A DNA stretch of 64,000 nucleotides from Anaeromyces robustus (lineage: Eukaryota > Neocallimastigomycota > Neocallimastigomycetes > Neocallimastigales > Neocallimastigaceae): positions 1 to 64,000 of the forward strand of contig MCFG01000007.1 in the NCBI GenBank assembly GCA_002104895.1, written 5' to 3'. This document shows, in pieces, positions 9,573 to 64,000 of this stretch (its first letter is position 1; every line of letters begins with the position of its first letter). The position numbers and the translations under genes were made by a program. A model generated the notes under the pieces. The model saw nothing but the letters and a program-made list of their open reading frames with translations. It had not been told where the DNA came from and made no database searches.

Positions 9573-12500
9573 TTATTGAGAATTAATAATTAATATATTA
9601 TTAATAATTTCATTTAAGACTTTCATATTATAATATTGAGCAATGTGTTTAAAAGTATTTAATTGAATCATGAATTCATCATAATCCATATATAATTTGT
9701 ATTCACCCCCACAATGACATTTTGCAGAAATATTATCTCCTTTTATATTTCGACATTTTTTACAAACTAAATCTTGAAGTTGATATGCCATGGCTTTATT
9801 TTGAACAATTTCTAATAAACGATCTTCAATAATTCTTAGATCATATTCCATTTTACATCCTGGACAACTCCAGAAAGTTATATTTGTATTCGTAGTTGAA
9901 TTATTAATATTTCTTTTTTTATTATTACTTTGATTTAAGGAATTTGTAGTGTTTTTATTTCCATTACTCATTTTATTTTCATCGTTATGATTTTCGTTAT
10001 ATTGATTTTTCAATTTAACAATAATTGCATTATAGTCTTTAGTGTTATCAGATTCATCATTTTCTCTACAAAGATCAATATCACGACAGTAATTACAATA
10101 TTCACAAATAACTTGTCCTAATTTAAAGGAGGTACATGGATTTTTAAATTTAGCTTCCTCACTAAATTCACGAATATGAATAAGTTCTAAAAGATTACGT
10201 TTTAACACTCTTACAGAATACTCTACAGATTTATCAAGTGAAAGAACATGACAGAAATATTTTATAAATTCTAAAGTAGCATTATCTCTTTTTAAATAGG
10301 CACCTGGGGGTTCTGGAAATTCATAAAGAATAGCATCTTCAGTATCATGACTAGTTTGATATTTTTCGTGAATCGTGCTAACTTCTTCTAACAATGCTCT
10401 TGTTAATACTGTACTAATTAATTTTCGTTTATAGTCAGTATCCTCTTTAAGAGTATTCTTTTTCTGCCCTTCCTTATTAGTATTATTATTTGCTATTATT
10501 TCATCATTCTCTACATTATATTTTTGCTTAGTTTTTGCCATACTAATAGAAAAAAGATACTCAGAAAAATAACGATCGAATAATATTTGATATGCTACTG
10601 GTAAATATTTTTTGATATTCCATTGTGATACAATACATTGAGCTCTTAATTGTTTATTCATTACTACATCTAAAGTGGCATTTGGTGATAAACTAGTAAT
10701 ACCTCCATAATTTGCATAATCCATCCATATTAATGTATCCCAACATTGGGTTGGATTCAATTCTAGTCCGCTAAAAAGCTGTTTTGTAATGATAGTTCTA
10801 ATAACATAATTCATATGATTAACAGCATTAGCAACACTAACTTTTGGTGACATGACTATAATTTTTCTAAAATTAGCATATATAATTTTTAACCCTAGAT
10901 TACGAAATTCTGCTAAAAGTTGCATAAATACCTTTTTCATAATACCATGAATTAAGTTAAAAAGTGCAGGATCGTATAATTTTGAATTTGGACTTGTAAT
11001 CCAGCGATAAAAATGTTCTATCATCATATCAGCAAATCTATTCTTTTTATCACGTACTTCATTATTCCATGAAATAATTAAGGTACGGAATAATTTAAAA
11101 GTTTGAGCAGAAATTGCATTTTCATCCATAATTTGAATCATTGATGTTTGTAAGGTTTCCCTTTTTATGTTATCTGGATCATTTCCATCATTGTTACCTC
11201 CGTTTTCAATTTTATTCATTAAAATATTAGGATCATTAAGATTTTTATTTGCAATCATTGCCATATGATCATTCAAAGTATGTTGTGCCATAGAACTTTC
11301 AAAACCAATACTACCACCTCCTTCAATTTCATTAATTATATTGGCTTGTTGAATTGTATTAACAGCTAAATTTATTAAATCTATTTCCATACTAATTTGA
11401 TCATACATACCGGGGATATTAACTTCAAAGTTTTCTATTTCTTCAATTGAATTATAATTTTCATCATCTTCACGACTACCTAAATCTGGTTTACTGGATG
11501 GTGAATACCATAAAAGCATACCTTCTCTTTGAAGTCTTCTAGAGAAGAAAATATCTGCAATAAATAAAGGATAATCATTTTCAATATTACAAAATGGTAT
11601 ATCTGCATATCTAGCCAAAGCAATACGTTCTGTAAGCCAACCATTAACATTAAATAAGTGTGAAATGATTCTTCTACATATTGGTCTTTGCCAGTCTAAG
11701 GCTGGAAATTGATTATCACGTTTATAAGAAGAAATATAGACAACTGGAAAGTCATTAATACTTGGAATATTTTCTGAGAGTTGTTGCTGATTTAAAAAAG
11801 ATTGAATTATTAATACTGTTGGTTTATGTCTTTCTTCCTGATATTTAGAAAGAATTTTTTGAATATTTTGAAATGCTTTTTCTTTTTCTGAATATATTTC
11901 TGATTGCCATTCAATTGTTTCATGATATTTAAATATATTATTTTCATTAATTTCACCAGATCTAATTTTGTCATTACGTTTTTCAGTATATAATCTATTC
12001 ATATTTGGCATTTGATTTAACTGGGAGACGTCTACTATATTAATATGTGCTTTTGTTGAATCTGTAGTATATAAACAGAATACATGACGACTATCAGCAT
12101 AAGAATGATATAAAAATATATACTCTAGAGCATCTTTATCATTTAAATAAGGTTTTTTTGATACATCTTCTGGTTGAAGATACTCCATAGAAATACCTTT
12201 ATCAATATTTCTTACCATGGAACGATTTACACGTGTTATACAACCAATATCTATTAATACTCTATATAATAAAGGTATTTGGGTTTCGTATACCCCTTCA
12301 ATAGATGGATGACTAATAAAACTAGAAATAACTTTCATATTTTCTTTATAGACAATTTCAGGCATTTGAAATTCATATAGATATAAATTTTTATGGGAAC
12401 GAGGTAAAATTTTATTAACTTTTTTAACACTATATAAATTTTCAATTGAATGTCCATTTTCGTCAACTTCAAAGCCTCCAGATGAAATTTCATCACCTGT

Positions 12501-15500
12501 ATATGGGGTTTTACTATTTACATAAAAAACTCTTGGAACCAGTAACTTAATCATTTGTATTTTATCATCAACCAAAACCCATAAGCGAAATTCTCCTGGT
12601 TTGTCACTTTCTGTTACACTTAAAATTTCCCAACAATTGGACACCACTATATCAGTTTGCTTTTGGAATAAAGATGATAAAGCACCTGCATTTAAAGATC
12701 TATTGAAAATTTTACCATGTGTCTCTTGTAATTTTCTTCTTTTTAATCTATTTATTCTTTGTCTTTTCCATTTTTTTTTCATATATTCAAGCCATGCTTG
12801 ATAATCTACATTCATATCCGACATTTCTCCTAAATCTTCTGTATCATCATTTACTTCTTCTTTATCAATTGCCATATTATCTTCATTTACTTCATTCGAT
12901 TTTCTTTTCTTAGAAACTAACTTTTTATTTACTACTGGTGTTAATTTTGGTCTGCCAATATTTTTATTACTATTTTCATCAATAATCATATCCTCCATGT
13001 CATCAATTAAATCAGCTTGCGATTTAATATTATCATTGCTATTTTCTGAATTATTTATATTGTTTCCGTTTATTAATTCTTTATCATTAGTTTTAGATTT
13101 TATTTGGAACATATCCGTAATATGATGTTGCTTTAATTTATCGTCTCTTGTAACTAAACGTTTAAATAACCATTCAGGATAATGAATACGAGGTACAGGA
13201 TTACGAACTTTTTGCATAGCAGCTGGAATTGTTATTAATTTTTGAATAACTGATCCAAATCTTTCTAGATAATATTGCCAATCTAAAATTGATCTTATAT
13301 CAAAATCTTGTAGATTACTGTCTTTTAACCAGCGTCTTAGGAAATATTTTTTCACACTTGGTTCAGCTTGGAATATAGCTACGGGTATAGCTCTTTCACT
13401 GACAGCATAACCTGCTGGTTTGGCGGAAATAATAAATTTACATGCCAAACCTTTGTCCTTCACCATTTGATCTCCAAGGAATTCTGCTAAACGCTTTGCA
13501 GTACTAATAGATGTAGATTTTTGACTACCATACTCTTCTAATGATTTACTCATACTTCTATTTTCAGAAATTAATTCAAATAATTCATCGTCTCCGACAT
13601 CTTTGCCTTTACTAAATAATAAATCAAGCCACTGATCAGCTACTTTGGCAACAGATGCATAACATTCTTCCAAAGTATTACCTTTCAAAAAATTACTAAA
13701 AAGTGATTTTTGGAAAATTTTAATTAGTTTTAATTCACCACGTCTTTTGACTTCAAAACCTTTTAATTCTGCTAAAGATCCATTTGGATTGAATACTGCA
13801 TAACGTTTTTTTAATAATTTATCTTCTTGTGTCGATGATGGAAGAATCATAGCATAATATGGTCCGTCAACTTCAAAGAAAATACTATTTTCACTTTTAG
13901 TATGATATTCATAAGTATTTTCGTCAACTAATGTTTGATATTGATGGTTGGTATAATTATCATGTACTAAGTGGTTTAACATAACACAAGGATAGGATAA
14001 ATAATGTACTTTATCATTTTTAAATTTAAATATATAATTTTCAGGAAAAGATTTTGGTAGGATACACCAAATACCATCAGTATCTAATTCTAATGGACGA
14101 CCAATTCTTTCAACTAATTGTCGTGCCATTTGAATAATATGGGAACCAGTATAACATACTACACCAGCCATTTCCATCGAATACCATCTTGAACCTTTTC
14201 TCATAACATAACCATAAAATGAATTTAAAATACATTTGTGAGCTAATTGAAGTGAATCATACAGAACAACCATTTTTTTTGCTTTCTCTATTTCAGAATT
14301 ATTTCCAGATTTCACAGCATTTGACAAAGTTCTTTTTGCTTTTTTTAATAATCCCTTATATTCATAACGACGATCACGGAAATTTCTTACAGTGTTAACA
14401 TAAAACGGATGCTCACGCTGACAAACAATGGATTCACGCTCCACAAGTTTTGTTTCTTTTTTTCTTTTATAAACTTTTTGACAGTAATCACCTAAACGTT
14501 TATGAATTAATGTGGCTTGTTCTGATGAAGATAATTGTGAAAAATCTCTTGGTTGACCTCCTTTTACTTTTGATGGAAATTTTTCTGTCATAAGTTGGGA
14601 CTTTATCATATTATATTCAGCTCTTGTACCAGGATAGCATTCACCACGCCAACACCACTGCATTCTTCTTTGACAATTTGAACCATTTTGATTAAAGTCA
14701 CATGAGGCACAATCTTTTTCTGTGACAATGGCATCAGGCTGAAGACGATTGGTCAAAATAATATTTGGATACATAGCACCTACATCTAAGTGATAAATTA
14801 ATGGTGTTTCTTTTCTTATTGGATTTTTTTTTAAATTTATTAATTTATTATAAATATCTTCTCTTATCTGTATATTAATAGTTTAAAAATAATTCAATAA
14901 TATTAAACATTTATTAAATAATTATAGTTTATGTATTATTAATTATTTTTTTTTTATAATTAGTTATAAATTTATTTAACACTATATATATGACGAAATA
15001 TTTATTATACCTCTTCTAAATTTAAAACGTCATCCATTGACTGTTTTCCTTCAACTTCTATACTAAATTTTAAAGCTTTATCCAATTCGTTTAATAACTA
15101 AACATTTTTTATTTTAATATATGAATTATTAGTTAATAAAAAATTTATAATTTTAATATTACATATAAAAAAATTACTTTATCAATAGCAGTAATATCTA
15201 AGTTAAAATCGGTCGGTAAATCACTTCTAAATACACCAGCTTCTAATGCTTCAACATGACCACCAACATATGTTTCTGTATCTAGTAAATGCCCTTCATA
15301 CATCTTTATATCTGGATCAATATGCTTATTAGGCATAATTACACCAGCTAAATAAGCTTGTACCATAAGTAATGATTCACACAATGTTCCTGAACCTTTT
15401 CTTAAAACTTCATCTGGACATAATGGAATAATGTTACAAAGAGAGAAAATAAATGGATGTACATACTTCATATATAAATAGTATGTAGCTACAGCATCAG

Positions 15501-19215: not shown

Positions 19216-23318
<4,103 letters not shown>

Positions 23319-32882: not shown

Positions 32883-33862
32883 TTCTTTAATTAAATTATA
32901 ATATTTTAAAATAAATAAAATAAAAAAAAAAAAAAAAAAAAAAAAAAATATTTATATATATGTAATATTAACGAATAAAATTGATTTAAATTTAAAATTT
33001 AAAATTTAAATCAATTAAAACATTTTTTTAGAAAATAATAATTAAAGTTTATATATATATTAAAATAATATAAATAATAAATCAAAAAAAAATTAGTATT
33101 AAATAAACCATAATTATTCACTAAGTAAAATTTATTATGGCAAAATAAATAGGAATAAAAAAAATATATATTATTAATACAATAATTTCAATACATTACA
33201 TTTAAGATTAAAAAATTATCCAATCATATTTTAAATTAATTATTTATAATCCTATTACATTCTAAAATCCATTCAATTTCGAATCAATTTAAAAATAAAT
33301 AATGTTGTATGTATATAATAATAATAAAATATAAAATATATACAGTATATAAAGAAATAAAAAATAAAAATTTGATATTACACAAAAATTATTTAAAAAA
33401 ATTTATTATTATATAAAAATTTATTAATAATCAAAAGAAACTTTTCAATAGATAATACTCTTTTCTTATTACATAATTCTTAAATAAGGAAAGCTTTTTA
33501 TAGTGAAATTTTATTTATAATTTTATTATAATTTTATTATTTATTATTCAACTATTCATAGTAATAAATATAAGAAATATCTTTATTATGAATACATTAA
33601 TATCTATTTCAATATAAATGTTTTGTAGATAATAAATAATTAATTAATATATATTATTTTTATTGTTATTTTTATTTATGTTTTATACATTTATGATATG
33701 GTTAGGTTATAACATAACAATTTATAATTTTCCATTTTTAATATATTTAGCAAATTTAAATCTATTTTTTTTTTTTTTTTTTTTTTGAAATAATTTTTAT
33801 TTAAATATATATATACATATTATAATAATAATATTTTGGAATGTATATAATATATAATTAAC
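32883..33862. promoter_or_regulatory. Divergent intergenic region, UTP30-like / SYF1
   Basis: About 980 bp between divergent start codons. It has a poly-A run near 32923-32948, a short perfect inverted repeat around AAATTTTAAATTTAAAATTT near 32983-33015, and a poly-T run near 33767-33786 close to the SYF1 start. No specific factor site can be named. Confidence 0.45.
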
Positions 33863-36712
33863 ATGCAATTAAAAGAACATAATAATTTAAAAGAAAAACA
33901 GGAACAAACTAGAATAAATGAAATTAAAAACCAATTACAATTAATAAAACTAGATGATATACCATTTGAAGAAGATCTAATACGAAATCCATTTCATTTA
34001 AAAAAATGGTTACGTTATATAGAATTTAAAGAAGAAGATAGTTTTGAAAGTAAAATTTTTATTTATGAAAGAGCATTAAAGGAATTACCAGGAAGTTATA
34101 AAATATGGAAAAAATATTTGGATTTAAGAGTTTCAGTATTGTTGGAAAAAAAAGATAAAGAAAATAATAAAAAAGAAAAAGAAGGATATCAAGATCGAAT
34201 TCCTAAAGTATCATTATTAAGTGTAGAATGGGAAAGAGTTAATAATTGTTTTGAAAGAAGTTTAATATTATTAAATAAAATGCCTGTTATATGGGCATCT
34301 TATTGCGGATTTTTAATGTTTCAACAAAAGCCAACACGTACACGTCGTACATTTGACAGAGCATTAAAAGCATTACCAATTACACAACATTCAAGGATAT
34401 GGGAATTATATAAACAATTTGCAAATAGAATAGGCGGAGAAACCGCAATTAGAATTTGGAGAAGATATCTTAAATTAGATGCAGGTAATACTGAAGATTA
34501 TATATACCTATTATTATCTATGAATCCTCCTAGATATACTGAAGCAGTTAAAATGCTTTCAGGTATTGTAGAAAATCCAAAATTCATATCAAAATATGGT
34601 AAAAGTCCATATCAACTTTGGATTCAGCTTTGTGAATTAATATGTGATCATGCTGATGAATTAGAAACAATTGGCGTAAATTCAAATATTTTAATTTTAA
34701 ATTCAAATGGTGTTACATCTGGTATTAATAATAAAATAGGTACAGTAGAACAACTTGATGTAGAAAAAATCATTCGTTCAGGCATTGCAAGATTTTCAGA
34801 TCAAGTAGGTATATTGTGGAATAGTTTAGCAAGATGGTGGATTTTAAAACAAGAATTTGAAAAAGCAAGAGATATATATGAAGAAGCTATGACAAAAGTT
34901 ACTACAGTAAAAGATTTTACATTTATATTTGATGCATATTCACAATTTGAAGAAAAAATTATAAGTATGAAAATGGAACAATTAAACGAGGAAAGTAATG
35001 AAAATGAGGATGAAGAGGAAAATGAAGAAGAAATTGAATTAGATTTATTAATGGCAAGATTTGAGAACTTAATGGATAGACGTCCATTCCTTGTTAATGA
35101 TGTTTTATTAAGACAAAATCCAAATAATGTACATGAATGGGAGAAACGTGTAGAATTATGGAAAAAGACAAACAAACAAAATAAAGTATTACAAACTTAT
35201 ACTAACGCCATTAAAACTATTGATCCAAAAAAAGCAAGTGGAAAATTAAGTTCTTTATGGATTAGTTTCGCACATTGGTATTTAGAAGCAGATGATCTTA
35301 AATCAGCGCGTACAATATTTGAAAAAGCAACCAAAGTACCATATAAAAAGGTAGACGAACTAGCTGAAATATGGTGTGAATGGTCAGATGTAGAATTAGA
35401 AGCAGGTAATGTTGAAAAAGCTCTTGAAGTCATGGCAAGAGCTACTGTACCTCCAAATCATAAGAAATTAAGTGTTCGTTATACTGATGAATCAGAAACA
35501 CCACAAGCACGTCTTTTCAAGAGTTTAAAACTTTGGGCTCACTATATTGATTTAGAAGAAGCTTTAGGTACTGCAGAAAATACTAGAGCTGTATATGACC
35601 GAATGATGGAATTGAAAATTGCAACTCCTCAAATTATTATTAATTACGCTACATGGCTAGAAGATCAAAAATGCTATGAAGAAAGCTTTAAAATTTATGA
35701 AAGAGGTATTGACCAATTTGGTTGGCCAGTGGCTTATGAAATTTGGAATATTTATTTAACTAAGTTTATAAAAAGATATCAAGGTACTAAATTAGAAAGA
35801 ACAAGAGATCTCTTTGAACAAGCTATTGATAAATGCCCAGAGAAATTTGCAAAAACTATCTATTTAATGTTTGCAAAGGTAGAAGAAGAGTATGGTTTAA
35901 CAAAACATGCTATGCGTATATATGATAGAGCTACTAAAGCCGTTTCAGATGATGATCGTTTTGAAGTATTTAAACTTTATATTGCTAAAGTAAAATCTTA
36001 TTATGGTGTTACAGCCACTCGAGAAATATATGAAAGAGCTATAGAAATATTACCAAATGTTGAAGCAAAGGAAATGGCTTTAGAATTTGTTGAATTAGAA
36101 ACACAATTAGGAGAAATTGATAGAGCTCGTGCTATTCTTTCTTATGGAACACAATTTGCTGATCCAAGAGCAGATACTAATTATTGGAAGGTTTGGCATG
36201 ACTTTGAAGTTAAATATGGTAATGAAGATACATTTAAAGAGATGCTTCGTATTAAACGTTCAGTTCAAGCTAAATTTAATACTGAAGTTCATTATATATC
36301 AGCTCAAATGATGGCAGCAAAGGCTAATAATAATAATAATAATAGTAATAATATAATTAATGAATCCAATGAATCAACAACAGAAGAAACTGGTAATGCT
36401 ATGGAAAGATTAGAAAAGAACATTTTAAATAATGGTGAAGCTTCAAAAACAACAAACTTTGCATTTGGAAAACAATTTGTAAAAGCAACAATTACCCAAA
36501 CAAAACCTAGTGAAGGTGACATGATTAATGAACAAAAGAAAGAAACTGTTACTAATCCAGAAGAAATTGAAATTGATATGGATGATGATGATGATGATGA
36601 TGATGAAAGTGATGAAGAAAAAAATATTGATTTAGAACAAAAATCAGTACCTGAAGCTGTATTTGGTAGTATAAAAGAAAAAGCATCATCACCATTAAAA
36701 AGAAAAAGATAA
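33863..36712 (+). CDS. SYF1: Pre-mRNA-splicing factor Syf1 (XAB2)
   Basis: Single uninterrupted frame of 949 residues (human XAB2 855, yeast Syf1 859). It starts near DIPFEEDLIRNPFHLKKWLRY, the usual N-terminus of the family. HAT (half-a-TPR) repeats run through about residue 800; clear units include IYERALKELPGSYKIWKKYL, RTRRTFDRALKALPITQH, KARDIYEEA, SARTIFEKATKVPYK, NTRAVYDRMMELKIATPQ, RTRDLFEQAIDKCPE and ATREIYERAIEILP. The segment RADTNYWKVWHDFEVKYGNE is typical of the family's C-terminal end. Syf1 belongs to the Prp19/NineTeen complex of the spliceosome and is also linked to transcription-coupled repair in animals. The tail has an Asn run, nine consecutive Asp and ends SPLKRKR, a possible nuclear signal. 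It has no intron, unlike most neighbours. Confidence 0.96.
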   Translation: MQLKEHNNLKEKQEQTRINEIKNQLQLIKLDDIPFEEDLIRNPFHLKKWLRYIEFKEEDSFESKIFIYERALKELPGSYKIWKKYLDLRVSVLLEKKDKENNKKEKEGYQDRIPKVSLLSVEWERVNNCFERSLILLNKMPVIWASYCGFLMFQQKPTRTRRTFDRALKALPITQHSRIWELYKQFANRIGGETAIRIWRRYLKLDAGNTEDYIYLLLSMNPPRYTEAVKMLSGIVENPKFISKYGKSPYQLWIQLCELICDHADELETIGVNSNILILNSNGVTSGINNKIGTVEQLDVEKIIRSGIARFSDQVGILWNSLARWWILKQEFEKARDIYEEAMTKVTTVKDFTFIFDAYSQFEEKIISMKMEQLNEESNENEDEEENEEEIELDLLMARFENLMDRRPFLVNDVLLRQNPNNVHEWEKRVELWKKTNKQNKVLQTYTNAIKTIDPKKASGKLSSLWISFAHWYLEADDLKSARTIFEKATKVPYKKVDELAEIWCEWSDVELEAGNVEKALEVMARATVPPNHKKLSVRYTDESETPQARLFKSLKLWAHYIDLEEALGTAENTRAVYDRMMELKIATPQIIINYATWLEDQKCYEESFKIYERGIDQFGWPVAYEIWNIYLTKFIKRYQGTKLERTRDLFEQAIDKCPEKFAKTIYLMFAKVEEEYGLTKHAMRIYDRATKAVSDDDRFEVFKLYIAKVKSYYGVTATREIYERAIEILPNVEAKEMALEFVELETQLGEIDRARAILSYGTQFADPRADTNYWKVWHDFEVKYGNEDTFKEMLRIKRSVQAKFNTEVHYISAQMMAAKANNNNNNSNNIINESNESTTEETGNAMERLEKNILNNGEASKTTNFAFGKQFVKATITQTKPSEGDMINEQKKETVTNPEEIEIDMDDDDDDDDESDEEKNIDLEQKSVPEAVFGSIKEKASSPLKRKR

Positions 36713-37498: not shown

Positions 37499-39215
37499 TT
37501 ATTCATCATCATCATCAAACACAGTTTTTTGTCCTTTGAAAGTAACCAACTCACCATCCCATTTTGCAATAGCAATTGGTTTTGGTTCAGCTGTTTTATT
37601 TTCCTTATTATTATGATTATCTTTAGATTTCTTATGTAATTTATTATAACCTCTACGAGTAGCATCTTCACCAGCATATTCCACTCTTAAAACTCTACCT
37701 AATAATTTTGGTTTTTTTCCAGACTTCATAGCTTTTATTGCAGAATCAATATTGGCGAAATCAACATAAGCAAAACTATTAATTTTAAATAAAATAAATA
37801 TAATTTTATTAATATCATTATTTATTATTATTATACATTATCTATTATTATTTATTTATTTATTATTACTATTTATTATATTATTAATCTACTAATATAA
37901 CATATAAACTTACCCTTTACATTTCTCTTGATTATCTTCAAATGTTGCTACTCTAACATTACTAATTTCACCAAATTCTTTAAAGCATTTAGAAATACCA
38001 TCAGCTGTAGCAGCATAAGGTAAATTACCTATGAAAAGAGTTGGACTTTCCTTTTTATTATTTGTATTTGATTTACCACTGTTTCTTGATTGCGCTGAAT
38101 TAGCACTATTATTATTGTTGTTGTTGTTTGAGGAATTTTTAGCTGGTCTACCTCTAAAATCTTTAGAAGATTTAATTAGTAAATTTCTATTTTCAAGTGT
38201 TTGCTCAGATAAAGCAACAGCTTTTTTCATAGATTCTTCATCTTCAAAATCGATATAAGCAAAACTATTTATTATTGTTAAGAAATAATATAATAATACG
38301 CATAATAATAATAATAATAATAATAAAAATGTTAATATTTATAATAAGATTTAGATATTAGCATATATTATATATTTTAATGTCTTTATATATCTATAAT
38401 TTTATAACTATACAAATTAAATTTAATTTTAATAATATAATTAAATTTTTAAAAATAATGATTTAATAATAAATAATATCTTTAAATATAATAAATTTTC
38501 AATTTTATAAGAATTATTGAATTTTTGCTTAACAGAGTAATTATTATTATTATAATTATAAAATTATAAATTATAATTATAATTATAATTATAAAATTAT
38601 TAATTATAATTTTAAATAATTATAAATTATAATTATAATTATAATTATAAATAATTATAAATTAAAAGAAATTATTTATATAAAAACATACCCTTTATTA
38701 TTTTTTGTCTTCTTATTAATTGGTAAATTTATTCTAGTTATTGTGCCACAGTCAGCGAAAAATTTCTTTAACATTTCTTCAGTTGTTGAAAATGCTAAAT
38801 TTCCAACCCAAATACCAAATTCACCTCTTTTTCCATTACCATTAATTTCTTTTTTTTGCTTTTTATTATTATCATCATCTTCAGAATTTAATGGTTCTCC
38901 TGTAATTTCAGCTTCTTCTCTCTTTCTTTTTTTTTCCTTTTTTTCCTTCTTTTTTTCCTTCTTTTTTTCCCTTTTTTCTTTTCTTTTTTCTCTCTTAGCT
39001 TGTTCTTCATCTATTTCTTCTTCTTCTTCACTACTACTACTATCATCACTTTTTTCTTTTTTCTTTTCTTCTTCTTCTCTCTTTTTTTTAGCCTCTTCTC
39101 TTATTTTTTTATGTTCAGCCTTTCTCTTTTTTTTTAATTTCCTTTTAAGTTCATCTTCATCTATTGGAACATTTTGATGCCAATTGTCAAAATCATAATC
39201 GTCTTCGTTATTCAT
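37499..39215 (-). CDS. NOP13: Two-RRM nucleolar RNA-binding protein, Nop13-like
   Basis: Three exons (38692-39215, 37914-38264, 37499-37775) join in frame to 383 residues (yeast Nop13 403). The first third is a highly charged Lys/Glu/Ser stretch with acidic SSSSEEEEE and basic KKEKKKEKK blocks. RRM1 has RNP2 GIWVGNL and RNP1 KGFAYIDF (about residues 130-205). An Asn/Ser spacer follows. RRM2 has RNP2 LFIGNLPY and RNP1 KGFAYVDF. The tail contains GRVLRVEYAGEDATRRGYNK and ends VFDDDDE. The order long charged N-terminus, RRM, RRM, RRGYNKLHKK is that of Nop13/Rnp24 nucleolar proteins. Both introns fall at the same place in each RRM, inside RNP1, which suggests RRM duplication with its intron. Confidence 0.83.
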
Positions 39216-39222
39216 CTTTATG

Positions 39223-39256
<34 letters not shown>

Positions 39257-45678: not shown

Positions 45679-47359
45679 TTATTCTTCTTTTTTATTATTT
45701 GTCTTCCTAAGACTTTTAATTTTTAAAGCAATATTATGACCACAAAACATAATTACAGCAATAATATGTCCTATCCAACCCATGTTATGGTAAGCTATCT
45801 TTATTTTATTCCATGTAAGAAGATCAAAACCAATTAATGGATAAGCTACACTTGCAACAGTCAGTATAGTACAAATTGCATGATATATTATATATAAAAT
45901 CTTAAATGAAGTACTTTTATTTGTTTCTAAATTATTAGCCATGTGTTGATTTAATGGTTTAAACCAATATTTAAGAATATCTTGGAGTATAAATAATACA
46001 AATTCAAAATAAAAACTAAATGGATAACCAATATGGAAACCATGCCATATTGAGAGGAAGGTTAAATTAATAAAAAGTGAAATAAGTTTATTACCTAAGA
46101 ATGCAAATCTTTTATATACATAATGTTTTCCCCAAAGATTTGTTTTAATATTATAAGAACACACTAATTCATCGAGACCAAATACGAATGCAAATTTTGT
46201 TGTATCAACATTATTGATAGCATTCCAATAATAATCATTTTTTTCTGAATTTATACCATCTAATTGTATCATATTAATAATACCTTGAGTTTCTACAAGC
46301 ACCCATACACCGAAATACTATTACATTTATTTAAATTAAATAGATATATAAATATATTATTAGTAAATAATAATTATAATAATAATTATTATTATATAAA
46401 TGTATATATCTACTTTAATATATTATTTTTTTTTATAAAAAAAATATAAAATAAAACAAAATAATATAAAATATAATAAATTTTATATATTATAATATAA
46501 TATAATATAAAACAATAATATAAAACAAAATAATTACTTTAAAAAGTACAAATCTTCCTGTTATCCATACATATATAAATTTCTTAATTATGTTAAATTC
46601 TGTAAATTCTTTAGTTAAAATAAATGATGAATAATAACGTGAACTAATCAAAAAGAATATAGCGGTGTATATTAAACCTTTTAAGAAATGTAATATACTA
46701 TGTTTTCTGGAAGATTCAAGCAATTTTTCAAGGTCTTTTTCCATTGAAATATCTTTAGTATTAAATAATTCAAAACTGATAAATTTTTTATAGCGTCTAA
46801 ATGAAAATTGAGGTCCAACAATAGAGGATCCATAAAAATAGCAATAACCTAACATTTCAATAAGTAATGGTTTTTCTTTAATTGGCCATTCTGTTGGTGG
46901 AGTTAAACCTGTATATACAGTACGACTCTTTTTTACAGCTTTATCATCTTTCTTTTGACCATCAGAATAATCCATACTTATACCAATAAGTCTTAAACAT
47001 ATAACAGATTGAGGAGTTAACCAATTTAAATCATATTCAGTAGAACTATATAAATAATATGATATCAACAAATATCCGAAGTTAAAAACCCAACTTGCTA
47101 TAGTGATATATTTTGGATTTTTAATATGTTGTATTATTATAAAAGTCACAAATACACTTATTAAGGGATGATAGAAATCCTTTCCATTAAAATATAATGA
47201 AATAATAAATCCGGTAATAAAAGTATATATATTTCTCTGTAATTCATTTCCTTTCTTATTTTTGATAAAATGTATTCGATAAAAAATTGAGAATGGAAAA
47301 CCCATTAATAAAGAAATAATCAACCTTACAATTGGCCCTTTTAATAATTCAAGATCCAT
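45679..47359 (-). CDS. MBOAT-family lysophospholipid acyltransferase (LPCAT3/ALE1 type)
   Basis: Two exons (46538-47359, 45679-46317) join in frame to 486 residues, close to human LPCAT3 (487). It is an ER polytopic membrane enzyme that re-acylates lysophospholipids in the Lands cycle. Hydrophobic helices run throughout (for example LIISLLMGFPFSIFYRIHFI near the start). Family signatures are LRLIGISMDYSDG, YCYFYGSSIVGPQFSFRRYK near residue 170-190, VWVLVETQGI after the intron, and SIWHGFHIGYPFSFYFEF, where the His of WHG is the catalytic histidine of MBOAT enzymes. The C-terminus is basic then acidic (KTNNKKEE), compatible with a cytosolic tail. Substrate head group cannot be decided from sequence. 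The intron is 220 bp with a GTAATT donor. Confidence 0.9.
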
Positions 47360-48007
47360 ATTTAATTCTTTAAATAGAAAATAATATAAAATAAAAAATA
47401 TATAAAAATAATAATAAAATAATTTTTATATTTATTATTATAATGTTGTAAAAGAAAGAAAGAAAACAAAATAAAATAATTTAGTCTTTTTTTTTTTTTT
47501 TATAATGTATAAAATTTTCCTGAATTTATTTTTTTTTTTTTAGTATATATAAAAAATAATGAAATAAAATAATTAGATTGAAATTTCAATAGATAATAAT
47601 ATATAATTATATTTATTTTTATTTCTATTGTTATATTATATATATATCTTTATATATATTTTATATTTTGATACTTTTATAATTTTTTTTTTATATTTTT
47701 TTTCTCTGTAATTCTTTTTTTTCTTTTTTTAAAAAAATGGTTTTCTTTTATTACAATATGAAAAATATTCATATGAAATTTTTTTGTTTTGTTTTGTTTT
47801 TATAAATTTCATATGAATAATATTTTCTTAGATTTACATCTATTTCATATAATAAAAATTATATTAATATCAATTTTTATGCATTTATTATGTATGTATG
47901 TATTAATGTATTTTATATCAATAAAAATTAAATTTTATTAATTAGTATTTAAATACAAAAAACAGAAAAAAATAAAAAATAAAAAAAATAAAAAAAAAAA
48001 TTAAAAA

Positions 48008-55542: not shown

Positions 55543-56684
55543 ATGATTGAAAAAGTAAGTAAAGAATTATAAATCATTATTATTAATCGATATTACTGAT
55601 ATTTATTGATATAAAAATTTTATAAATCGAAATTACTGATATTTATTGATATATAAAAATTTTATAAATTTAATCTATTATTTAAAATATTATGTAAAAT
55701 CTATTAATATATCATAATTTTTTTTTCAAATTAGAGAAATCTATTTAACACTACAAAGGTCTCGGAATCCGAATTCAATAATTATTTAACAAAAGGTTTT
55801 ATTAACGAAGATGAATATTTGGTCGATAGAATAATATATATAATAATTTTTATAATTTTTAATATTATTTTTATTCCGTCTTTAATTTTGTAGGTTATCA
55901 TATTGTTTTTTATTATATTATTTATTAAGTTATTTATATATTTATTTATTAATATATTAATTATTAATTTATTTATTTATTTATTTTATATATTAATTTA
56001 TTACTAATTTATTTATTTATATATTAATTAATTATTAATTTATTTATTTATTTATTTATTAATTTATTTGATATTAATATTATATATATATGTATATTAT
56101 TTGAATATATAATATATAAAAAAAAAAAAAAAAAAAAAAAAAAAGATTTTATAAATTACGTAATTCATATTTTGTACACCAAAGAAACTTTGGTTTGACA
56201 TTTTTTGGTGGAATAATAGCATATATAAATGCTGTTTTTGGATTTGTAAGTGAATTTTTTTATCACATTACTATAATTAATATTTTGTATTAATAAATTT
56301 TAAATTAAATAATATTTAGATACCACAAATAACATTACTTCCATGTCCAGGTATATATAATTAAAAATATATATAAAAATTGATATATATAAGAGTTTTT
56401 TTTTTTTTATTTTAATTATATTGATAAATATTTATAATATAAATTATTAAATTATTTAGTAACTGTCTATTCTACAAATGTGATAAATATTCTTACTTTT
56501 CTTATGTAAGGAATAATAAAAATATAATTAAACATATTCAATAATTAAATTGTATTAACTAAAAATATATAAAAAAATAAAAAAAAAAAAAAAATAAAAA
56601 ATTTAGTTTCTTTACAAGAAGTATTCGTGTCATTTTATTTTATCATTTTAATGTATATAAAGGTATATATTAATATATAAATAT

Positions 56685-56715
<31 letters not shown>

Positions 56716-56994
56716 TTATTTATCTATTTATTTGTTTGTTATTTTTTTTTTCTTCTTCGTTTGTTTGTATATATATATATTTAATATTAATACAAATTAT
56801 GAATAAAACTAATCGATTTAATTAATTTAATAATATCATTGAAGTTTCTTCCATAAATAAAAAGAAACATAGAAATAGTTTATATGGAAAGAAAGAACCA
56901 AATAACTACCTTCCTATTATTTATAGAAAAATTAATAATATAATTTTTTTATTTATTTTAATACCATTTGTAAATATTAATTATCATTCCAAAT

Positions 56995-57036
<42 letters not shown>

Positions 57037-57932
57037 TATATATTCTACTATAGCTATTAACAAGTTTTATATTTTAAAAAAAAATTTTTTATAGTTAATC
57101 GCATTAATTGTTACTGTAACTCTTCATATAAGAAATTATAATGATTGCAAGTAAATATATAAATATCAAAAATATATTTTTAAAAGAAATAAAAATAAAA
57201 TAAAATAAAATAAAAAAAAAATAAAATAAAAAAAAGATAATAATATATTAAATATATTATATATATATATATTTTTTTTTAGGTTTAGTACATTAACCGA
57301 TACCTTGATTGGCTTAAAGCAAAATAGCTTAAAACAATTATATTTTATTGTACAGATTTTTGGAGGTATTTTTATGTTTCTCAGTTTTATTATAGCAGTT
57401 TTATTATTTTTTGTTAAAGATTTTAATAAATATGGGGTTAAGGTAAATTTGATAATCATTTCATTATAATTATTATTATTTATTATTTATTATTTATTAT
57501 TTATTATTTATTATTTATTATTTATTATTGTCATTATTGTTATTATTTTTATTATTTTTATTATTATTATTATTGAATTATTCTTTTCTCTAATATTTAT
57601 GTATAAAATATTATTATAAATACTATATAATAGTTTGAATGTATTAGTACTTCCATAATGATTTTAATTTTTAGTATTATCAATGTTATACTTCAAAATA
57701 ATGCTACTGATAATCCAAATATTAAAAAAGATGAACACATAAGAATGTTTCTAAATTTATTTGAAATAACTAAAGGTGGAAAAATACTATTTAATATTAT
57801 TTCAATTTATATACTATTTGTTTCTATAACTTTACCAATTCTACAATATTATAAATCAAAATCAGAAATTAGTAAAAATTCTGAAGAAGTAAATATATAT
57901 TATATATTATTCTTATGATTTTTATAATTATG

Positions 57933-57964
<32 letters not shown>

Positions 57965-58428
57965 ATTTCATATAAATTATGATTAAATTAATATATACTA
58001 TATAATTATATATTTTATATTATTTTAATGAAATAATAATATTATATCAATATATAGGTATATTCAATACAATATTTTTATAAAATTCTAAATACACCAT
58101 CTTTATTAAATCAATTAAGAGATATAGCGATAAAGGAATTTTCAGTAGAAAATATTTTATTTTATGAAAATTATAGAGTTTTACAAAAAATGGTATTTCG
58201 TTATCAATCAGAATATAATAAAGCTAAAGAAACTGGTAATGAAAATGAAGAAATTCAGTATAATTTTGAAGAATATTATCAAGAACAAATACAATCAATC
58301 ACAACATCATCAATGGATAGTGTTTCATATGATCCAACCATGCCAGTACCAAAAGAACTAAAATCATATTTTACTTCATTTTATGAAATGTAAGTAGAGA
58401 TATTATAATATTAATAATAATAATAATA

Positions 58429-58477
<49 letters not shown>

Positions 58478-58545
58478 CGACGATAATTAGTATTTTAATA
58501 ATTAAAAAATTACTATTATTATTATTGTTGTTGTTGTTGTTGTTG

Positions 58546-58612
<67 letters not shown>

Positions 58613-58929
58613 AATAATAAATCTATTAAATGTATTAATATTAATAATATTTATTATTATAAATATATATAACAAAATATAAAACAAAAACAAAAACAAA
58701 AAATTTTATTTTTAATAAACTAAGGTTTATTGATTACAATGGACCAGCAGCGGTTAATATTGCTGGACAAACATCAAAATATATTTCAAATGCATTATTA
58801 AATAATCCAACCATTGGTATATTTGATATGGCTAAAAATGAAGTTGTTGAAATGATGTTTTCTACTATCTACCCAATTTTTCTAAGACAAAACAAAAAAT
58901 TTCTAAATATAACTTCAGTAATTTGTTAA
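55543..58929 (+). CDS. Seven-transmembrane protein with C-terminal RGS domain (copy 1)
   Basis: Twelve exons join in frame to 510 residues: 55543-55554, 55735-55889, 56146-56245, 56320-56350, 56460-56505, 56607-56662, 56845-56969, 57095-57150, 57283-57442, 57634-57888, 58058-58389, 58725-58929. I count seven hydrophobic segments: exon 2 end, FGLTFFGGIIAYINAVFGF, NVINILTFLIFFT, IFLFILIPFLIALIVTVTL, IFGGIFMFLSFIIAVLLFF, IMILIFSIINVIL, and IISIYILFVSITLPIL. From about residue 340 an RGS domain follows: SLLNQLRDIAIKEFSVENIL, FYENYRV, a variable linker, PKELKSYFTSFYEMFIDYNG, NNPTIGIFDMAKNEVVEMMF and IYPIFLRQNKKF. The core FSxENILF fits the family. RGS domains speed GTP hydrolysis by G-alpha subunits; a 7TM-RGS fusion resembles plant AtRGS1. 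Ligand is unknown. A paralog follows in tandem. Confidence 0.88.
58412..58615. repeat. Compound trinucleotide microsatellite in 7TM-RGS intron 11
   Basis: (AAT)n, then (GAT)n, a break, then (TTG)n and (TTA)n, all between the donor at 58390 and the acceptor before 58725. Poly-Met and poly-Leu frames here are intronic artefacts. Confidence 0.93.
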
Positions 58930-59239
58930 AAATTTAATTATTCTTCAGAATTTTTTTTTTTTCTTTTATTTATATATATATAAATATTTATTTATCTATT
59001 TATTTATATATCTATTTATTTATTTATTTATTTATTTATCTATTTATCTATTTATTTATTTACTTATTAAATTAATATATTAATTTGAAATTATTCAAAC
59101 GAATTATATTAATAATTAAAGTAACCTTCACATATATCTATCTTTTATATATAAATATAAAAGATACATAAAGTTATTTTAAATATTTAATTTATTTAAA
59201 TGTAATAAAAAAAATTAAAGGATTAATAAATAATTATAA

Positions 59240-59270
<31 letters not shown>

Positions 59271-59566
59271 ATATAAATCATTTAGTATATAAATGATAAA
59301 AATAAAAATAATAATAAAAATTAAAAAATAAAATAAAAAGCTTTAAATACTTAAAAAAAAAATAGTTCTATTAAACATATAAAATATTATAAAATATTAT
59401 CAATTCAATATTTTTGTTAAAAATATTTTTTTAATTCTGCTAATTAAATAGTCTTATTATAATAACTTAATAATTCATTATTATAATTAAATTAATAATA
59501 ATAATAAATAAAATGGTATAATATATTAATATCATATATTGGTGTTACTGTATTAAATATATATAG

Positions 59567-59686
59567 AATTATACCGACTTTATTCAAGACTTTTGATATT
59601 CTTGCAGATTACTATGATAAAGGTTAGATATCTCAGGGAGATTTTAAAGGTGTTAAATTTAAATAAAGTTTTCATTATTTTATTGC

Positions 59687-59728
<42 letters not shown>

Positions 59729-59749
59729 TGTAGACATTGAAATGATAAG
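59567..59749 (+). pseudogene. Isolated dead exon of an unidentified host gene
   Basis: Bounded by an acceptor-like ATATAG and a donor-like AAG/GTATAT. It reads RIIPTLFKTFDILADYYDKG, a stop, then ISQGDFKGV. After the insertion at 59654-59719 it continues DIEMIR to the donor. Codon use and GC content are exon-like, yet no partner exons are found, and it carries an in-frame stop. I do not recognise the family. It does not resemble the RGS genes on either side. Confidence 0.5.
59641..59731 (+). mobile_element. Tiny poly(A)-tailed retro-insertion with 13-bp target-site duplication
   Basis: The 13-mer ATTTTAAAGGTGT occurs at 59641-59653 and again at 59719-59731 (the first base of the second copy is shared with the A run). 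Between them lie 34 bp of unrelated sequence and an A run of 32 (59688-59719). An AATAAA polyadenylation signal (59662-59667) sits 20 nt before the A run. This is the hallmark of LINE-type target-primed reverse transcription of an mRNA 3' end, strongly 5'-truncated. The source transcript is unknown. The dead-exon reading continues across if the insertion is ignored, so it landed inside an exon. Confidence 0.75.
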
Positions 59750-59992
59750 GTATATAATTAATTTATTTTAATACGGATACTTGGAGAAAAGCTTGAAGTA
59801 TTAATACTTCCTTTTTTTACTTGATAGATATTATTATTATTTTTTTTTTCTTCTCTCTTTTTTTTTTTTTTTTTAATTATATTCATATAATTAAATATTT
59901 TAAAATTTAAAAAAAATTGGTTAGGTTTATTAATTATTAAAATATATATAGAAAATTCCTCATTTTTATTTTTTTTTTGTCCTACTTTATAT

Positions 59993-60061
59993 TTAGGGAT
60001 TATTTATATTTAGTGTTAATCCTTAAGTATTATTTTTTTTTTCAGTATAAATAATCCCTAA
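59993..60061. repeat. Inverted repeat with 16-bp perfect arms
   Basis: TTAGGGATTATTTATA (59993-60008) is matched by its exact complement (60046-60061) with a 37-nt spacer that includes a T run. It could be a miniature foldback element, a transcript hairpin or chance; no clear target duplication is seen. Confidence 0.7.
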
Positions 60062-61810
60062 TATTTAATCTTAATAAATAGAATTTATATATTACAATTT
60101 AATTTAATTTAATTTTGAATTAAATACAAATATAAATAAAAATTAAATTGTTATTTTAAAAATTAATTTATATAAAACATAAAAATTTCGTTTGGTATTA
60201 TATTTTTCTTTATATTATTATCAGGCCACATTAATATAAATGAAAGTAATTTTTTAATTGAAGAAATTCTTTAAATTGTGTAAATATAGATGAATAATAA
60301 TTATAATAATTTTTATTTAAAAGAAATAAAAAAAATAAAAATAATAAAAAAGGCTTAATTAATAAAGTAGTTAATATTTTTTACAATAAAACTAATTAAA
60401 GTAAAAAAAGAAAAACTCTAAAGATGTTTTATTTTTTAGCTATCAAATCCTATATAATATTATTTAGTGGTATAAACACTGTTTTTTAATAGTATTTAAT
60501 TAATAATAAATATTTTGATTATTAATTTTTATAATTTTATTTTTATTAAATGTTTAATTAATTAATTAATTAATTAATTATTTATTTATTTATTTATTTA
60601 TTTAAAATGTCTTATTATTATTATTATAATTATTATTATTATTTTTTTTTTTTGGAACATATTTTTAATAATTAAAGTATTCATATAATTCATATATATA
60701 ATATGTAATGAGTATTCTTTTATAATTAATAATGAATAATAAATATATTTATATTAACAAATATTTTTATTTCATATTTATTATTTATTAATTAATTAAA
60801 TATTTTTTATTTTAATTTTTAATTTTTTTATTTTTTTATTTATTTATTTATTTTTTTTTTCTTTTTTTGAATCAAATAGGTTGGTATAAATTGAAATTAA
60901 ATAATACCTTTTTTGGTAATGTGATTTTGTATTCATTTAGAATAAAAAATTTCGATTACACAAAATAATAATTTTATTTGATAAAATTTAAAATAAAATA
61001 AAAAAATTATATTTATTTATATTAAAAGTTTAAAAATTTTCAAAAATATATTAGTTATATGAATAATATATAATATATAATCTAAATAATATATTATAAA
61101 ATATATTATTTTATAATACATATAATTGTTTACATATCATTATAGTATATAATAATATATTATTATTATTATTATTATTGTTGTTATAGAAGTAAAACAA
61201 TAATAAGAACTCAAAGATATTAAATAGAATCTAAAAATAAAAAAATATATAATTAATTTTAAAATAATAAAACATATAATTAATTATTATTAAAAGAATA
61301 ATTAAATAGTTTTTTAAATTATTATAAAATTATTTAAGTTATTATTAAATATAATTAAAAATAAAGAAAGAAAGAAAGAAAGAAAAAAAAAAAAACTAAT
61401 AATTTTACATATTTAAAATAATTAAAGGATACTTTAAATTATTTTAACCTATTCCGAATATTTAAAAAAAAACATTTCCAATTTTTAATTTTGCTAGAAT
61501 AGTTAATATAAAAAAAATGTCATTGATGATGATAATTTTATAATAAATAAAGTTTAATTAATAATTTATATTATTATAATATATTATAATATATTATTAA
61601 ATATAATATACAAAGAATATTTATATTATGATCTTTAATTAAATTTTTCTTTGTTTTAAACTTTATTTATTATATTTTTATAAATTTTAATTTTATTTGT
61701 ATTCAGGTAATTATTTAGAAAAGAAAAAATTTTTATATTCATTAACTATTGGAATTTTTTTTTACATATTTAATTAATGTTTTTTAAAATATTTCCTTTA
61801 TTTTTTATAT

Positions 61811-61930
61811 TAATAATAAATAGTAATAAATAATAAATAATAAATAATAAATAATAAATAATAAATAATAAATAATAAATAATAAAATAATAAAATAATC
61901 AATAATCAATAATCAATAATCAATAATAAA
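61811..61930. repeat. AAATAAT heptamer array followed by CAATAAT heptamers
   Basis: About ten AATAAAT-phase units (61811-61885), then about five AATCAAT-phase units (61896-61930). The two share period 7, suggesting spread of a variant unit. Confidence 0.85.
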
Positions 61931-63021
61931 TAAATAATAAAAAAAAGTAAATATATAAATATATAAATATATAAATAAATAGCCATACTTTAGGTATGAA
62001 TTGTTATATTATTGTTATATTTATATTATTCTTTATTGGTATTATTGCTTTTTTATTATTATTTAATATAAATTATTCATTAGATATAAAAAAATCATAA
62101 ATTTGAACATTAAATATTTAAATATTAATTTCCCATTGGTATATTATAATTTCTCAAAAATAACTATTGTATGGTTTAATATTGAATATATCATAGAAAA
62201 TAAGGAACAATAACAATTAACAATAATATTAATTAGTAAAATTTAATATTTTATATTAAAAAAAATTTTTTTGAAAAAAAATGAGAGGTTTTACAAAAAA
62301 TCAATAACAATTTTATATTAATTAAGGTTTATATTCAAACATAATTTATTTAATTATATATTTATAAAATCCAAAACTCATGTGGAATAAATAATTAAAG
62401 ATTTTATTATTCTTATTTTTTTCTTTTATTTACTGTAATATTCCTTAAATTTAATATAATAAAAAAAAAAAAAGAATAATAATTTTAGATTTAAAATCAA
62501 TAAACATATTTATCTTTTAAATGTTTAAGAAATTATAAATTTATAAAATATAATTTGTCAGGAAAAATATATATTTAATAAATATAAATTTAATTATACC
62601 CTGAAACAATAATAGCAAGAAAGAAAAAAAAAATACATTATGGTTTTATTTGAATTTGAAATAATGAATATTAAACAATTAAAATCTGATAATGAATTTT
62701 AGACAATTTTAAAAAAAAAAAAAAACATTTTTAAAATATATTAAATTTATGTATTTTATATATAAACATTAATCAAAGTGCTATTATTTCATTGAAATTG
62801 TAATAATTTTTAGAATATATATTCAATTTATTATGATATATATTTTTTCATATATTAAAAGAATAAAATAAGATAAATATAATTCAGAAATAAAAAAAAA
62901 AAAAGTTTCAAGAAATAAAAATAAATAAATAAATAAATATTATTGCATCAATAAACTAAAATATAATTAAGATAATAAACAAATTAAAAGTTTTTAATAT
63001 AAGTAATAAATAATATTAATA

Positions 63022-64000
63022 ATGACACTAATAGGAAAAGTAATATTTTAAATTATATTATAAATAATATAATAAATACAACTGATAATAATTTAATTAT
63101 GATAAAATATGATAATTTTGGTTCATATTATTGAATAAATTTATTTTTTATTTCCTTAATAAAAAAAAATAGGATGGAATTTTTAATACCACAAGAGTGT
63201 CAAAAGAAGAGTATGATGTATATATACATAGGGGATTTGTACAAGAAAAAGATAAATTTATTGTAGAAAAAATATTATATAAGATTGCTTTTGTGGTTTT
63301 TAGTATTTTTTCTATAGTTTCCTTAATCTTGTAAGTATTTTAAAAAAATATTATATGCTGTATAAAATTTTAATTTATATTTAAATATAAATTTTAATTA
63401 TTATTATTATTATTATTATAAATGTTAAACTAAATTATATATATTATAATATATAGTTTTTATAAATTACGTAAATCATATATTATTCGTCAAAGAAATT
63501 TTTGTTTAACTTTTACTGGAGGAATATTGACATACTTAAATACTTTTTTTGGATTTGTAAGTTTCTTTTTTTTTTTTGTAATACTTTTTTTCTTCTTCAC
63601 TATTTTTCTTAAATATGTATTAAATTAATCGATATTAATAAATATTGTATATTTTCATTTTTGTAGATACCACAAATGTCAAAAATTCCTTGCATATGTA
63701 AATATATTATCCATTATTATTTATATTTAATAAATTTATAGTAGCATTATGATATTAATATAATAATATTTTATATATATTTTATTCAATAGTGTCTGTA
63801 TTTTCTTCAAATATTTTAAATGTTGCTGTTAATTTTATGTAAATATTTAAATAATTTAATATAATATTTTTTTAAAATAATTATTAATATATACATCTAT
63901 ATATAAATAATTATTATTTTATCATTATAAATGTATTATACTAATATTAATATATTTTTATATTTTTTATACATATATGTTATTAATTTAGTTTTTTAAC
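63022..64000 (+). CDS. Seven-transmembrane RGS-type protein (copy 2), N-terminal part, cut by window end
   Basis: Six exons in frame: 63022-63039, 63173-63330, 63457-63556, 63667-63697, 63793-63838, and 63992 to the window end. The start MTLIGK is chosen because it is followed by a donor in the right phase, mirroring copy 1. Exon 2 reads DGIFNTTRVSKEEYDVYIHR, GFVQEKDKFIVEKI and then a hydrophobic helix; exon 3 reads FYKLRKSYIIRQRNFCLTF, TGGILTYLNTFFGF; then IPQMSKIPCI and SVFSSNILNVAVNF. Exons 3, 4 and 5 have the same lengths as in copy 1 (100, 31 and 46 nt) and exon 2 differs by one codon. The RGS domain would lie beyond the window; its presence is inferred from the paralog. Confidence 0.85.

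Follow-up and report, generated by a model that had tools for sequence, protein, structure and literature searches.

A tandem array of genes for seven-helix proteins with a C-terminal RGS domain in Anaeromyces robustus: candidate receptor-controlled GAPs in an expanded fungal family

Proteins that combine a seven-transmembrane (7TM) part with an RGS domain are already known from plants and moulds. The plant protein AtRGS1 is described as a GAP for AtGPA1, and glucose decouples the two (PMC3718340). Among fungi, class 6 G-protein-coupled receptors (GPCRs) have been reported in Ascomycota and in early-diverging lineages (PMC12842992). For the class VI receptors of Aspergillus oryzae, loss of a Glu-Asn pair is reported to abolish RGS function (PMC10794492). 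In Naegleria, the RGS domains of 7TM-RGS proteins are reported to show GAP activity towards part of its own G-alpha set (PMC9283941). In the fungus described here, it is the size of the family that stands out.

The window, that is the whole stretch of DNA analysed, comprises 64,000 nucleotides of one contig of Anaeromyces robustus. Copy 1 of the family occupies positions 55543-58929 of the forward strand, from the ATG at 55543 to the end of the stop codon at 58929. The spliced model contains 12 exons separated by GT..AG introns and amounts to 1533 nt, encoding 510 residues:

55543..55554, forward strand, copy 1 exon 1 (12 nt, encoding MIEK; spliced model)
55735..55889, forward strand, copy 1 exon 2, N-terminus and TM1
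56146..56245, forward strand, copy 1 exon 3 (100 nt), TM2
56320..56350, forward strand, copy 1 exon 4 (31 nt)
56460..56505, forward strand, copy 1 exon 5 (46 nt), TM3
56607..56662, forward strand, copy 1 exon 6 (56 nt), TM3
56845..56969, forward strand, copy 1 exon 7, loop and start of TM4
57095..57150, forward strand, copy 1 exon 8, TM4
57283..57442, forward strand, copy 1 exon 9, TM5
57634..57888, forward strand, copy 1 exon 10, TM6 and TM7
58058..58389, forward strand, copy 1 exon 11, first part of the RGS domain including the Glu-Asn pair
58725..58929, forward strand, copy 1 exon 12, last part of the RGS domain and stop

Copy 2 follows in the same direction, about 4 kb downstream as the earlier note had placed it: its ATG lies at 63022, 4.1 kb past copy 1, and the gene runs beyond the window edge. 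Completed from the contig sequence downstream of the window, its full product measures 524 residues. The following exons fall inside the window:

63022..63039, forward strand, copy 2 exon 1 (18 nt)
63173..63330, forward strand, copy 2 exon 2
63457..63556, forward strand, copy 2 exon 3 (100 nt)
63667..63697, forward strand, copy 2 exon 4 (31 nt)
63793..63838, forward strand, copy 2 exon 5 (46 nt)
63992..64000, forward strand, copy 2 exon 6, truncated where the window ends (full length 56 nt, to contig position 64047)

Both genes share one exon plan. The common exons of 100, 31 and 46 nt and their phases, on which the note had based its comparison, were confirmed, and the 56-nt exon comes next. 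A tiny first exon such as that of copy 1 also precedes copies 6 and 7. For copy 2 and for a further member, C668, the aligner placed false introns into open frames, and both frames were read through by eye. The two proteins are 54% identical over their whole length, which supports the view that the duplication is not recent and rules out a recent one.

The earlier description of a tandem pair understates the locus. On extending the contig to the right, at least seven family copies were found, all in one direction, between 55 and 112 kb, and the reading of a mere pair is thereby ruled out. Elsewhere in the genome, ten more members could be modelled, together with one very divergent relative; the resulting family size of about 18 is a lower bound. 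In the tree the array copies form a single clade (support 89/91), which supports the local expansion that had been suggested. Seven intron positions are common to array and dispersed members. The conserved intron plan noticed in the first two genes therefore extends beyond them and is older than the array. Two intact members, located on different branches of the tree, are intronless and are probably retrocopies. A single origin of both is rejected: well-supported branches demand that the change happened twice, and trees with a single change make up 0% of 200 bootstrap replicates. Tandem duplication, together with probably two retrocopy events, would have built up the family. An NCBIfam search with copy 6 returned no match, and 75 pattern matches in viral contigs included no relative.

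Copy 1 was predicted to be a complete fusion of seven helices and an RGS domain, and the analysis bears this out. The RGS profile PF00615 (Pfam cut-off 23.9 bits) matches residues 339-498 of the 510-residue product above the cut-off (36.4 bits, E 7.9e-9), so the possibility that no true RGS domain is present can be discarded. The profile is also above the cut-off in copies 5 and 6 and in two other members (C379 and C75). Copy 2 (21.8 bits, E 2.6e-4) lies slightly under it, as do C668, C690 and C109; these four matches range from 20 to 22.3 bits. Ahead of the RGS domain, hydropathy averaged over seven members displays seven peaks, the first centred at residue 49. The predicted helix count is upheld at this level, as none of 1000 column shuffles exceeded five peaks of at least 1.6, where the real alignment has seven. 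Taken alone, copy 1 shows seven peaks when the threshold is lowered; since 121 of its 500 shuffles also reach seven or more, the single-sequence test is a weak one.

The reading that we favour, with a probability of roughly two in three, is that these proteins are receptor-controlled GAPs of the AtRGS1/GprK kind which underwent a lineage-specific expansion to at least seven tandem and about 11 dispersed genes. The product of each complete gene is a seven-helix membrane protein whose N-terminus is short and whose C-terminal part is the RGS domain. In the presumed membrane orientation, the 7TM part would sense a ligand or another cue and position or gate the RGS domain, which in turn would accelerate GTP hydrolysis on G-alpha and thereby reset the signal.

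The RGS interface gives both support and some difficulty to this picture. The Glu-Asn pair, on which GAP activity depends, is kept in 11 of the 14 RGS domains read, and most members also retain the VN in the next loop. The genome holds eight G-alpha genes: four lack the switch-I glycine, while the other four keep the RGS-sensitive TTG switch-I motif and are the putative partners of the 7TM-RGS proteins. However, of the 12 RGS domains whose counterpart of the animal D-S-Y-P-R stretch was read, none keeps the Asp, all have Ile or Leu in place of the Ser, and one keeps the Arg. Such replacements may weaken or redirect G-alpha binding. They would suit an RGS domain that has become a docking module devoid of GAP activity, either as a scaffold or effector site or as the regulatory tail of ordinary exchange-type GPCRs. 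The same explanation could account for three C171 members in which the Glu-Asn pair is changed, and for array copy 7, which persists although no RGS part is detectable in it. We consider it unlikely given how widely the Glu-Asn pair and the VN are retained, and given the four G-alphas with an RGS-sensitive motif.

Is the 7TM part itself more than a membrane anchor? If it senses nothing, the expansion would reflect dosage or drift among RGS proteins that are simply tethered to the membrane. In A. oryzae an RGS domain without its 7TM part is reported to have restored the phenotype (PMC10794492), and a large extracellular ligand-binding domain is absent from copy 1 and the family. Conservation points the other way: the 7TM part is preserved in all seven array members, RGS-less copy 7 included, and it holds two cysteines that are invariant in the seven-member alignment. 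In addition, the class C GPCR profile PF00003 (7tm_3) aligns collinearly with two members out of 12, copy 7 at 29.9 bits (E 5.7e-7) and copy 4 at 23.6 bits (E 4.7e-5), both below the cut-off of 33.5 bits. Shuffled and reversed controls of copy 7 gave no match to this profile (0 of 10). E-values near 1e-3 mean little here because a DUF with no relation to the family was hit by one of the shuffled controls (E 0.0033). Other searches returned little: none of the Pfam 7TM models matched copy 1, Dicty_CAR had no match anywhere (its controls were likewise silent), and the sole match of the 7TM profile in the PDB was a designed protein (E 0.16). Kinship with class C was also tested by profile-profile and local HMM comparison against domains of that class in this genome, with negative results. 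On balance, an inert anchor seems improbable to us.

That the array is largely decaying, with one or two working copies only, is very unlikely: in copy 7 no RGS part could be detected despite a GTAAGT donor site after its last modelled exon (scores of 64 and 93 in the next 6 kb fall within the background of 55-108 from 17 stretches, so a hidden RGS part is ruled out there), the first exon of copy 5 was looked for and not found, and copies 3 and 4 are not readable to the end, but copies 1, 2 and 6 are open from ATG to stop, copy 5 is open from exon 2 onward, and dN/dS is below 1 in all six pairs tried (NG86, without a significance test).

Receptor-controlled GAPs in such numbers would make the family a set of sensory candidates in a group of gut fungi that penetrate the plant fibre eaten by herbivores. 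For the speculative role in zoospore chemotaxis to plant fibre raised in the earlier note, the type of organism is the one thing that fits: the genome agrees with Neocallimastigomycota, the anaerobic gut fungi, and is rich in dockerins. About 18 7TM-RGS genes, eight G-alphas divided by their RGS-contact residues and 127 class C GPCR matches in one genome offer a natural system in which to examine whether receptor-GAP and receptor-exchange control share the work. A bolder proposal, which we regard as a long shot, is that G-protein signalling in this lineage works largely by receptors that control how the signal is switched off, that the remodelled RGS interface coevolved with a G-alpha set split into four members that keep the RGS-sensitive switch and four that no longer have it, and that the 7TM domains stand near enough to class C GPCRs to be living intermediates, connecting 7TM proteins fused to RGS with receptors of the glutamate type. 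Such a link in early eukaryotes has been proposed in work cited by PMC4608122.

Among known systems, class C (glutamate-type) GPCRs are approached by the sub-cut-off matches of copies 7 and 4 only, the other ten of 12 members having none, and the large ectodomain is missing here. AtRGS1 has the same domain order, and the likeness to it drawn in the earlier note is borne out for architecture only. The plants tabulated in PMC3386157 mostly have one 7TM-RGS gene, in contrast to the large family and eight G-alphas of this fungus. Naegleria, which belongs to another supergroup, likewise possesses a large 7TM-RGS family (PMC9283941). Compared by architecture, the fungal class VI receptors GprK and GprR of Aspergillus share the N-terminal 7TM part and the C-terminal RGS domain, and their Glu-Asn pair is retained in most members of the present family. 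Whereas three class VI genes are reported for A. oryzae (PMC10794492), about 18 genes are found here, in part as a tandem array.

Copy 1 lies in the window, which is bases 1-64,000 of a contig of 419,830 bases, in an assembly of 70.2 Mb and 769 contigs. Its gene (55543-58929, plus strand) has 12 exons coding for 510 amino acids, and every intron is of the GT..AG type. The model was first built by hand and the same result was then obtained with a purpose-written spliced protein-to-DNA aligner. Pfam places the following genes upstream in the window:

9576-14882, minus strand: DNA polymerase epsilon
21800-22252, plus strand: Rab-GAP TBC piece
33851-36709, plus strand: Syf1
38679-39254, minus strand: RRM protein
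45682-47425, minus strand: MBOAT acyltransferase, two pieces

The fusion of seven helices with an RGS domain, as read in the earlier note, is borne out. The sole Pfam domain in the 510-residue product is RGS (residues 339-498, 36.4 bits, E 7.9e-9). Among PDB sequences, RGS proteins account for 21 of the 22 matches listed up to E 10 for copy 1 and for all 22 with the RGS part of c6, the sixth copy. N-terminal to this domain, hydropathy averaged over seven members displays seven peaks; none of 1000 column shuffles produced more than five that reached 1.6. Single sequences give seven peaks in c1, c2, c5, c6, c7 and the C668 member and five in the C379 member; since shuffled c1 reaches seven or more in 121 of 500 trials, this count is weaker than the family average.

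The two genes had been described as a tandem pair. They are indeed in tandem on one strand, but 'pair' falls short: a profile from copies 1 and 2, run over both strands of 154 kb of the contig, located seven places, and rightward extension brought in c3-c7. Clear matches are on the plus strand only, with scores elsewhere of about 115-342.

Array copies located by the profile scan (contig C667)
55.5 kb, plus strand: c1, open from ATG to stop
63.0 kb, plus strand: c2, open from ATG to stop
~73.0 kb, plus strand: c3, 7TM part read
~80.5 kb, plus strand: c4, 7TM part read
100.4 kb, plus strand: c5, open from exon 2 on
104.9 kb, plus strand: c6, open from ATG to stop
110.1-112.2 kb, plus strand: c7 (locus L024), 324 amino acids modelled

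Only the 7TM parts of c3 and c4 are readable because the sequence beyond reads N, and such stretches may hide further copies. The first exon of c5 was looked for and not found. A full 7TM part is present in c7, with a GTAAGT donor after the last modelled exon; an RGS part was looked for over the following 6 kb and not found, the scores of 64 and 93 lying within the 55-108 spanned by 17 background stretches. Copies c1 and c2 share 54% identity, c5 and c6 73%, and NG86 dN/dS, as point estimates on divergent copies, ranges from 0.29 to 0.53 in six pairs tried. Between c4 and c5 the array is interrupted by an open frame of 752 codons whose N-terminus is hydrophobic (contig C667, 93423-95678, loci L022 and L023).

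Searching the assembly with c6 and c1 yielded dispersed members, whose counts are lower bounds, on contigs C379, C668, C109, C690, C171 (three), C281 (two) and C75, as well as a highly diverged member, partly N, on C78. The family thus comprises at least 17 modelled members, several in part only, plus that on C78. In a maximum-likelihood tree of the 17, the array forms one clade (89/91), which C379 adjoins (98/97); C668 falls inside the other large clade (99/98) and C75 is a long branch. Scored as residue/phase on copy 1, seven intron places (90/0, 100/1, 115/2, 134/1, 248/0, 332/0 and 443/2) are common to array and dispersed members, and the introns are therefore old. It follows that the C379 (L011, 511 amino acids from ATG) and C668 (L059, 535 amino acids) genes, both intact, intronless and in one open frame, lost all of theirs, most simply and probably through two separate retrocopy events on different branches. 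The 443/2 intron occurs in c1, c2 and the C281 genes and is absent from c5 and c6, so loss also took place within the array. Two other loci, L005 (C292) and L017 (C379, ~24 kb), encode hydrophobic stretches followed by RGS sequence of another type (46.9 bits in L005); resembling the family above only weakly, they may form a second class of 7TM-RGS protein.

The genome setting comprises 127 class C GPCR matches, partly in local clusters (e.g. contigs C8, C590, C752 and C390), the fungal dockerin family (150 of 150 scored matches, 683 candidates) and a very AT-rich window (G+C 10-29% per 2 kb), which fits Neocallimastigomycota. Kinship of the 7TM part with class C receptors is suggestive only. 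All seven aligned members retain two cysteines (residues 98 and 193 in copy 1), placed where GPCRs have their disulphide between TM3 and the second loop. Among 12 members scanned with class C profile PF00003, c7 (29.9 bits, E 5.7e-7, profile positions 9-219) and c4 (23.6 bits, E 4.7e-5, positions 13-183) matched below the 33.5-bit cut-off and the other 10 gave no match; nor did any of nine segment-shuffled and one reversed c7 controls. When the family was compared profile to profile with five class C domains from the same genome, the probability was 0.2%, and HMMs from four or eleven such domains did not score the family above shuffles. An earlier proposal (cited in PMC4608122) had class C receptors distantly linked to 7TM proteins that carry a fused RGS domain.

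MoRgs7 is a class VI protein. A 2025 census records class 6 receptors with an RGS domain from Ascomycota and early-diverging fungi alone, its main text leaving Neocallimastigomycota unnamed (PMC12842992). A count of gut-fungal membrane proteins lists 53, 25 and 34 GPCRs for the three strains covered, all of them class C or rhodopsin/CAR-like, and its main text does not mention RGS (PMC5168858); the part seen of PMC10406608, which treats Neocallimastigomycota, RGS and GPCR, contains no such family. In the literature searched, which lay mostly outside subscription journals, no work joining 7TM, RGS domain and early-diverging fungi, and no earlier description of this expansion, was found.

Thirty G-alpha profile matches in the assembly correspond to eight genes when grouped by place, four weak mid-profile places (probable small GTPases) being left out. 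Switch I was located with a sequence pattern instead of an alignment; it reads TTG in the G-alphas of C534, C445, C16 and C223, and TTE (C79), TTQ (C679), TKK (C21) and TQR (C545) in the others. In these latter four (L033, L034, L036 and L038), E, Q, K or R thus replaces the glycine, and in two the preceding threonine is also changed. The second T of TTG is probably the threonine altered in grass G-alphas.

The RGS8 stretch D-S-Y-P-R, whose residues face G-alpha in the RGS4 complex, is T-I-Y-P-I in copy 1. Across 12 members (C281b and C75 left out), Asp never occurs, Ser is always replaced by Ile or Leu, and Arg is found once (C171c). Of the 14 RGS domains read, 11 retain the Glu-Asn pair; in the three C171 genes it is altered. 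The best account is that the 7TM-RGS proteins would act as receptor-controlled GAPs whose targets are the four G-alphas that keep an intact switch I, with activity, partner choice and ligand all inferred; a role in zoospore chemotaxis is a guess. In known systems, the switch-I glycine is given as the RGS-insensitivity site (PMC9283941), grass G-alphas are uncoupled from RGS by change of a switch-I threonine (PMC3386157), and Glu-Asn to Ala-Ala substitution is reported to abolish both the GAP activity of human RGS4 and the RGS function of A. oryzae class VI receptors (PMC10794492).
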